A stretch of DNA of 64,000 nt from Deltaproteobacteria bacterium. Lineage in GTDB: Bacteria > Bdellovibrionota > UBA2394. The notes below the pieces were generated by a model. That model had not been told where the DNA came from, did no database searches, and saw only the letters and a program-made list of their open reading frames with translations. A program made the translations under genes and the position numbers. The stretch lies in the NCBI GenBank assembly GCA_017302715.1, contig JAFLCD010000004.1, positions 1 through 64,000 of the forward strand, in the 5' to 3' direction. Shown piece after piece: positions 63,154 through 64,000 of this stretch (position 1 is its first letter; the number at the start of each line of letters is the position of its first letter).

Positions 63154-63231
63154 GTCCCCGTCGTCTAGCCCGGTCCAGGACACCTCCCTTTCACGGAGGT
63201 AACCAGGGTTCGAATCCCTGCGGGGACGCCA
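63154..63231 (+). tRNA. tRNA-Glu (anticodon TTC)
   Basis: The 7-bp acceptor GTCCCCG/CGGGGAC pairs perfectly and CCA is encoded (63229-63231). The anticodon stem CCTCC/GGAGG carries loop CTTTCAC with anticodon TTC at 63190-63192. The T-arm reads CAGGGTTCGAATCCCTG. These are the usual bacterial tRNA-Glu positions. Sequences like its 3' half recur downstream. Confidence 0.97.
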
Positions 63232-63358
63232 TTTCCTGATCACTTTTTCCCGCCAACTTCTTCAGACTGCGATACTCGGGTTTCGCGGCCTCAATAGGCC
63301 AGCTCAACCACTGCGTTTCTCGTCTTCATCGTTGGCGGAAAAAATTGATTCAGGAAAT
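63231..63358. repeat. Long imperfect inverted repeat directly behind tRNA-Glu
   Basis: The left arm (63231-63257) and right arm (63331-63358) are complementary in about 25 of 28 positions. The 73-bp loop contains a nested hairpin GGCCT-CAAT-AGGCC (63287-63300). The left arm starts at the last base of the encoded CCA. This could be a MITE-like insertion, a recombination scar or a structured RNA. Confidence 0.6.
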
Positions 63359-63365
63359 TGGAGAT

Positions 63366-63536
63366 CGTCCCGCAGGTTGATTCGAACCCTGTCAGTGAAA
63401 CGGTTGGGTTTGAATCCCTCGACGGTACTTGAAATCTCCGGGGGAGATTTCAAGACAGGAGAGAAACGTGAGAGATTTTGTTTTGGAATATTTGTAGTGA
63501 AGCAAATTAAAAGACGGTTTTGTTGCGGGGACGCCA
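63366..63536. repeat. tRNA-Glu-like fragments and a perfect 12-bp hairpin
   Basis: Three pieces resemble the tRNA 3' half. An inverted copy of T-arm plus acceptor lies at about 63366-63400. A direct T-arm-like stretch GGGTTTGAATCCC lies near 63407-63419. GCGGGGACGCCA at 63525-63536 is identical to the tRNA end (63220-63231). Between them CTTGAAATCTCC/GGAGATTTCAAG (63428-63439 with 63443-63454) forms a perfect stem with a GGG loop but no T-run. The region to 63620 holds no convincing gene. Confidence 0.6.
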
Positions 63537-63620: not shown

Positions 63621-64000
63621 TTGATTATCACCCCCTTTCTTATCGGACATGGGCGAGCAGGTGCTGCACTTCAGAAATCACTGGCATTAATTGGGACGCA
63701 ATATCCGCAATATAAAATTGCCGATTGTAGAATTCTCGCCCGTGGTGCGCGTCTTGAGGGAATGGCAAAGGACACAGACAATCCTATTCTTTTAATCGCA
63801 AATCCGCCTGGCTTACACTCTATATATATTGAAGAAGCTGCGCGGAGTGGTTTCAAAGCGGTGGTTGTTGAAAAACCTTCTTGCGTGCGGCATGAAGAAA
63901 TTTCTGTTTTGGAGAAAGTAAAAATTCCCGTCGCCGTCTGTCATATCTATCGGCAGATGTGGGGACCTCAAACTTTAAAAGCCATGATCGATTCTGGAGA
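63621..64000 (+). CDS. Gfo/Idh/MocA-type oxidoreductase, N-terminal part (cut by window edge)
   Basis: Read from the TTG at 63621, the frame is open to the window end: IITPFLIGHGRAGAALQKSL (NAD(P) fold with GHGRAG), ILLIANPPGLHSIYIEEA, SGFKAVVVEKPS (the EKP of the family), HIYRQMWGPQ. It is likely an NAD(P)-dependent sugar or related dehydrogenase. The start is uncertain; GAGG lies 12 nt upstream. No ATG is available earlier in frame. The rest of the gene is outside the window. Confidence 0.8.
   Translation, partial: MIITPFLIGHGRAGAALQKSLALIGTQYPQYKIADCRILARGARLEGMAKDTDNPILLIANPPGLHSIYIEEAARSGFKAVVVEKPSCVRHEEISVLEKVKIPVAVCHIYRQMWGPQTLKAMIDSG

Follow-up and report, generated by a model that had tools for sequence, protein, structure and literature searches.

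Why should a long inverted repeat begin at the very base that follows the CCA of a tRNA gene, and is it part of that gene's transcript or an element in its own right? The question is raised by a tRNA-Glu(TTC) gene with encoded CCA, located on the plus strand at 63154 to 63231 (ARAGORN; Rfam RF00005, 59.4 bits) of the window, by which we mean the whole stretch of 64,000 nucleotides that was analyzed. Folding and repeat analysis place a palindromic element of 126 bp, the first copy considered here, at 63232 to 63357, with its conserved fold on the minus strand. Its tRNA-side arm (63232 to 63257) starts at the base directly after the CCA and varies in sequence among copies while being complementary to the other arm of the same copy, here the distal arm at 63331 to 63357. 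The core captured by our covariance models R1 and R2 lies on the minus strand at 63248 to 63339 and consists of short helices, with G-A/G-A(A) internal loops between them and a GGCC hairpin as cap.

The inverted repeat with an inner hairpin that the first-pass annotation had described at this CCA end was confirmed by the pairing of the arms and by folding against dinucleotide shuffles. In the plus-strand fold, 63232-63257 and 63331-63357 form 24 arm pairs, with more pairs on the minus strand, and the inner part between the arms has its own hairpin. The CCA of tRNA-Glu takes part as well, pairing with UGG at 63359-63361 with one bulged base between. The window hairpin reaches −49.5 kcal/mol, compared to −28.3 ± 3.4 kcal/mol for the shuffles (z of −6.2; 0 of 200 shuffles as stable), and folding of 63229-63362 gives a z of −6.9 on the plus strand and −8.8 on the minus strand, so that the strand antisense to tRNA-Glu folds better than the sense strand. 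The T run that would mark an intrinsic terminator for tRNA-Glu is absent after the element, and the single match of the terminator scan, at 63221-63238, uses the tRNA acceptor stem.

The element is not alone. A search for other copies in the genome, proposed in the first pass, was successful with both blastn and the covariance model. By blastn, three more copies, sharing ∼55 to 105 nt of the core, were found in the same genome: beside tRNA-Leu(caa), beside tRNA-Arg(acg), and between tRNA-Thr(tgt) and tRNA-Gly(tcc). Inspection of the flanks of the 41 tRNA matches in this genome of 2.39 Mb added copies that have diverged further, next to tRNA-Met(cat), -Val(tac), -Asp(gtc), and -Arg(tcg), as well as fragments of the element after tRNA-Thr(cgt) and tRNA-Leu(gag). 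When the window copy was compared by blastn with 59 genomes, only short, chance-level matches appeared outside its own genome, so a covariance model was needed. R1 was built on five copies and R2 from 29 matches (in alignment A4, 28 of the 29 rows are distinct, L087 and L056 being one place). The window core scores 104.2 bits (E of 1.6e-27) with R1 and 95.1 bits with R2, matches that follow by construction because both models include the window copy. R1 found matches in 13 of 144 relatives; R2 found 9 in the window's genome at an E of ≤1e-3 and hit 49 of the 368 genomes searched in the phylum, the window's own among them.

The family also reaches beyond the phylum. A pattern scan of genome contigs returned one contig of “Candidatus Yanofskybacteria,” a member of the Patescibacteria group, whose element folds at a z of −7.0; the genome has four matches at an E of ≤4e-5, the pattern-scan hit included, plus one weak match, and one of the four (L247) is not recognizable by eye as an element. 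Across the Patescibacteria phylum, 9 of 379 genomes have matches. We thus have 149 copies in hand—127 with flanks read plus 22 from Patescibacteria—with lengths of ∼110 to 190 bp across the family; three R2 matches (G078:C508, G020:C9, and G023:C6) were left out of the copies read. Pattern scanning of viral contigs gave 0 matches, as did blastn of two elements against plasmids and of two against phages; in Rfam scans, tRNA alone scored above its gathering score, and no Rfam family matched the element. An earlier description of the family was not found in a literature search limited to open-license PMC papers, and it is apparently a previously undescribed family of short hairpin-forming DNA. 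Some of its copies (L101 in G002:C192, L098 in G104:C119, and L086 in G000:C5:10291) have long arms and no abutting tRNA; the stretch at L098 has a folding energy of −103.7 kcal/mol.

In each copy, the strand with the G-A loops (the GA strand) takes the shape of a rod, in which the arm is followed by helices of 1 to 5 pairs separated by internal loops and closed by a capped hairpin. Each internal loop has G-A facing either G-A or G-A-A, and the most conserved motif, CGAGG opposite GACGAAG, forms a “GA ladder” of tandem G-A loops. The arms flanking the core vary by family group, yet remain complementary. The covariation test suggested by the first-pass annotation has a positive outcome in both alignments used, A2 and A5. 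In A2, made with MAFFT before any model and scored on a structure taken from one of its own rows, 15 of 30 pairs show two-sided changes, compared to 5.8 after shuffling. The larger alignment, A5, combines 87 copies from the window's phylum with 13 from Patescibacteria, or 100 of the 149, near-identical and some weak copies having been left out. Its values lean toward structure because the alignment was fitted to the model: standard pairs fill 86.3% of cells (55.0% shuffled), two-sided changes occur in 878 cells (252 shuffled), the covariation score is 0.723 (0.190 shuffled; ≤0.087 for slid structures), and 29 of 29 pairs have changes on both sides, a measure that, taken alone, is equaled by 14 of 500 shuffles. 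Conservation of sequence is highest where bases are unpaired: in columns that are at least 70% filled, the commonest base has a mean frequency of 0.75 in 33 unpaired columns and 0.58 in 58 paired ones. Nearly invariant are the A's at columns 12 and 153 and the G's at columns 14 and 140, together with the surrounding C-G and G-C pairs. Template switching, that is, quasi-palindrome correction, can make complementary arms without selection, but it would not keep the G-A loops. We also compared the core by eye with two known motifs. A hammerhead ribozyme, brought to mind by a CUGANGA-like string on the 3′ side, does not fit in order or junction, and the loops, being 2×2 and 2×3, lack the three-base bulge plus G-A steps of a kink-turn.

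The two strands of the element are not equivalent. The GA strand is the more stable one as RNA in 122 of 126 copies, by a median of 11 kcal/mol; when DNA parameters are used instead, the same holds for 123 of 126. The isolated mismatches of the arms point in the same direction, with G-T outnumbering A-C by 64 to 26 in total; in a sign test per genome, G-T exceeds A-C in 22 genomes, the reverse holds in 5, and 6 are ties (P = 0.0015). In the core, the two mismatches are equally frequent (31 to 29), which speaks against a strand bias; the core alignment used for this comparison is crude, and related copies are counted in it, which is why the sign test was made by genome. The asymmetry fits a folding RNA and a folding single-stranded DNA alike.

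A second polarity appears where the elements meet tRNA genes. We read the flanks of 127 copies, 126 from the window's phylum and one from Patescibacteria. A tRNA gene lies within 30 nt of 45 of them, a number that counts ARAGORN hits only, so that copies by tRNA remnants (for example, L107, L099, and L081b) or contig ends are scored as misses. In every one of these 45 copies, it is the 3′ end of the GA strand that faces the tRNA; the end of the tRNA facing the element is its 3′ end in 38 copies and its 5′ end in 7. These copies span 23 isoacceptors and 26 of the 49 genomes, and in the window's own genome 8 of 9 copies are within 30 nt of a tRNA gene. None of the 22 Patescibacteria copies has a tRNA within that distance, and one has a tRNA at 129 nt. 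The same rule can be seen at single genes. Elements flank tRNA-Arg(tcg) of the window's genome on both sides, each with its GA-strand 3′ end toward the gene; the model matches the upstream element, and the downstream element is recognized by its fold only. For a tRNA-Met beside an ORF that we take to be rpoD-like, the element lies 3′ of the gene in two genomes and 5′ of it in three. These sites share the outer edge of the acceptor stem rather than a direction of transcription, and the acceptor stem may be what a machine reads at these sites.

Is the family mobile? It has the features of a miniature inverted-repeat transposable element (MITE), namely, terminal inverted repeats and a short noncoding body. 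In genome G191, three copies with identical cores, and a similar fourth, sit in unrelated flanks, and in G015 and G055 near-identical copies are scattered with their own terminal repeats. Direct repeats of 4 bp, recognized by eye, lie just outside the ends of some copies (CTAA at L138, AAAT at L140 and L142, AAGT at L143, and AGGT at L145), whereas L139 and L141 have none and L135 matches in 3 of 4 positions. Those of L132, L134, L144, and G191 are uninformative because the four bases are self-complementary; most of those in G015 are indistinguishable from the palindrome, and inspection by eye revealed no such repeat at tRNA sites. Transposition of the family appears likely from these patterns, and the palindromic element was presumably moved by an enzyme, itself a putative agent.

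The genes that might provide such an activity were sought in several ways. A search for shared neighboring proteins found no recurring neighbor gene except one syntenic cluster of an ORF that we take to be rpoD-like; a cluster of AAA_14 neighbors was a chained grouping that dissolved on retesting. No autonomous partner with the same ends was found in the draft genome G015, where the ORFs of three end-only loci were read, or in the draft genomes G468, G471, G368, and G426. When the end pattern was sought in four Patescibacteria genomes, each of its 15 matches proved to belong to a short hairpin, two of them (L276 and L279) with an altered apex, and no transposase there carries these ends. A Y1_Tnp domain is present in 12 of 16 element-bearing genomes but absent from the multicopy genomes G013, G015, G051, and G468, and none of the 16 Y1 loci examined adjoins an element (best E of 0.18). 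Of the small mobile element at a tRNA end that the first-pass annotation had envisaged, the mobile-looking features, the further copies, and the covariation stand; no integrase or transposase was tied to it. In L276 (G468:C48) and L279 (G471:C15), other sequence replaces or enlarges the apex, as if the loop tolerated insertions.

The surroundings of the window copy contain further pieces of the tRNA. An inverted partial copy of the T-arm/acceptor end of tRNA-Glu lies on the minus strand at 63366 to 63391 (its extent to 63366 judged by eye); within it, 63379-63391 pairs exactly over 13 nt with 63204-63216, so that the palindrome extends into the tRNA. An inverted tRNA piece past the far arm was also seen by eye at tRNA-Arg(cct) (L094). 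On the plus strand follow a degenerate direct copy of the T-arm (63405 to 63418) and an exact copy, 12 of 12 nt, of the tRNA-Glu 3′ end (63525 to 63536). A third, degenerate 3′-end copy (10 of 12) lies outside the window at C14:64631, ahead of another, weaker element (C14:64660-64748; 22.7 bits). The inverted copies may stem from template switching at the palindrome and the direct ones from repeated integration at the tRNA. Several other features of tRNA flanks deserve mention in their own right. Between the tRNA-Glu 3′-end copies at 63525 and 64631, an ORF starts at 63621, an arrangement resembling a small insert at a tRNA, and a perfect 12-bp inverted repeat with a 3-nt loop (63428-63454) also lies between 3′-end copies. 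At positions 350 to 650 of L010 (G000:C1:273249-273549), tRNA-Thr(cgt) is followed by a second tRNA 3′-end copy and then a collapsed element without apex. A second kind of repeat, of ∼75 nt, occurs after tRNA-Leu(tag) (L073; G000:C1:283600-285700) and tRNA-Leu(cag) (L075; G000:C15:56200-58300), the two being alike and each ending in a copy of its own tRNA's 3′ end. At tRNA-Arg(acg), beyond the element's far arm, positions 511 to 530 of L008 (G000:C15:41310-41329) form a perfect 8-bp hairpin with a GAAA loop, adjoining a GCACCC piece that resembles the acceptor end of tRNA-Arg.

How, then, are the copies best explained? The family, its fold and covariation, the strand asymmetry, the docking polarity, and the dispersed near-identical copies are observed directly; beyond them, we consider it probable that we are dealing with a family of short, palindromic, nonautonomous mobile elements with a conserved strand-specific G-A hairpin core and a tRNA-end polarity. 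Most likely, an enzyme acting in trans would recognize the GA strand in its folded state, be it RNA or single-stranded DNA, and then place the element. In many genomes, the 3′ end of this strand is docked at a tRNA gene, on the outer edge of the acceptor stem; the side is usually that of the CCA, in some cases the 5′ side. Elsewhere, copies would enter intergenic DNA. Since the acceptor stem is an inverted repeat, one recognition would explain both sides of the tRNA with a single polarity. Recognition of the folded strand and of the acceptor stem are thus the two conjectural steps of this scheme. A bolder version would make the family a mobile structured nucleic acid of a new kind, with a folded single strand recognized through its tandem G-A ladder and delivered in fixed polarity to acceptor-stem ends by a previously undescribed enzyme or RNA-guided machine in two distant bacterial groups; it seems to us possible but doubtful. 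The reading closest to the tRNA itself, a trailer hairpin acting on pre-tRNA 3′ processing or termination, agrees with an element that starts directly after the CCA and pairs with it and with the 38 copies at tRNA 3′ ends. Yet in those same 38 copies the strand of the conserved fold is antisense to the tRNA, 7 copies sit at 5′ ends, and many have no tRNA nearby, so that we regard this function as very improbable. For tRNA-Glu, too, the hairpin in a read-through pre-tRNA that the first pass had imagined is an unlikely target of conservation, because the conserved folding strand is the antisense one. The tRNA 3′-end copies suggest another reading, a tyrosine-recombinase attachment site in which the tRNA-Glu 3′ ends at 63220, 63525, and 64631 are att copies and the hairpin is attC-like. 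Direct copies do surround the first element and immediately precede the second, and similar ones follow tRNA-Thr(cgt), tRNA-Leu(tag), and tRNA-Leu(cag), but beyond most of the copies that abut a tRNA, reading the flanks by eye revealed no further tRNA 3′ end, and we hold such a site to be improbable.

Two further explanations start from the element rather than from the tRNA. The GA strand could be the source of a structured noncoding RNA, carried as cargo of miniature transposons and having a cellular role, for example, in protein binding through its tandem G-A loops. Covariation alongside conserved unpaired purines, the G-T bias in the arms, and a core kept over two phyla while the arms change would all be expected of it; near the window copy, however, the GA strand has no promoter-like site or terminator, most genomes of the phylum have no match, and there is no Rfam family. 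Moreover, the GA strand runs into the tRNA antisense in 38 of 45 copies and sense in 7, and with this mixed orientation read-through would yield no common transcript. We therefore think an RNA of this kind rather unlikely. The other explanation is an ordinary MITE of a DDE transposase, presumably IS5-like or IS630-like judging from TA-centered targets, whose core reflects inherited ancestry only and whose arms owe their lasting complementarity to template-switch repair. Such an element would be expected to show terminal inverted repeats, 4-bp direct repeats, and dispersed copies. But neutral ancestry leaves unexplained why G-A mismatches are conserved beside covarying pairs in two phyla, the one-way docking at tRNA ends and the strand bias find no explanation either, and no full-length element with matching ends was found in G015, G468, G471, G368, or G426; an origin of this sort is, in our judgment, unlikely.

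Under the reading we favor, a nonautonomous mobile element with a structured core, the family adds a covarying, strand-specific structure to a part of bacterial DNA usually treated as junk hairpins. Its countable rule, with one end always toward the tRNA, points to an insertion mechanism. And its presence in a Patescibacteria genome as small as 0.7 Mb may be a sign that elements are exchanged across distant lineages.

Several known systems share some of these properties. Integron attC sites are strand-specific folded hairpins in which structure outweighs sequence, a likeness to the present family; a tandem G-A ladder is not known among their features. In the rtT/tyrT repeats of E. coli, repeated units lie downstream of a tRNA gene together with copies of its 3′ end, and the tRNA-Glu array of the window, with its downstream 3′-end copies, resembles them; the rtT/tyrT repeats are not known as a dispersed, covarying hairpin family. 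Among long stem-loop MITEs, RUP, Correia/NEMIS, and RU are likewise short, palindromic, intergenic, and noncoding, with terminal inverted repeats. The targets of RUP contain TA (PMC2229807). Its ends tie RUP to one transposase, whereas the ends of the present family vary by genome; unlike RUP, our family has a strand-specific G-A core over two phyla and docks one way at tRNA ends. Rickettsia palindromic elements, compared here by description, resemble it in size and terminal inverted repeats, being long stem-loops of 105 to 146 bp (PMC2229807, a paper with 0 mentions of tRNA). The closest published description that we found is that of the CGTC REP superfamily. REPs of the GTAG and CGTC superfamilies are palindromic and dispersed, as the present elements are. 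They measure 20 to 40 bp, and the CGTC REPs have stems of 8 to 9 bp, loops of 4 to 5 nt, mostly a CCA-like tail, a predominant arrangement as head-to-head dimers, and no dedicated transposase (PMC3733652). The present family differs from REPs so described in its length of 110 to 190 bp, its G-A internal-loop ladder, and its lack of a tie to a Y1 transposase. For each named family considered, at least one defining feature is missing or lacks clear support, be it the autonomous partner, the Y1 tie, or an Rfam family; in its manner of working, what we describe resembles a palindromic mobile element of the MITE type whose core has a conserved fold.
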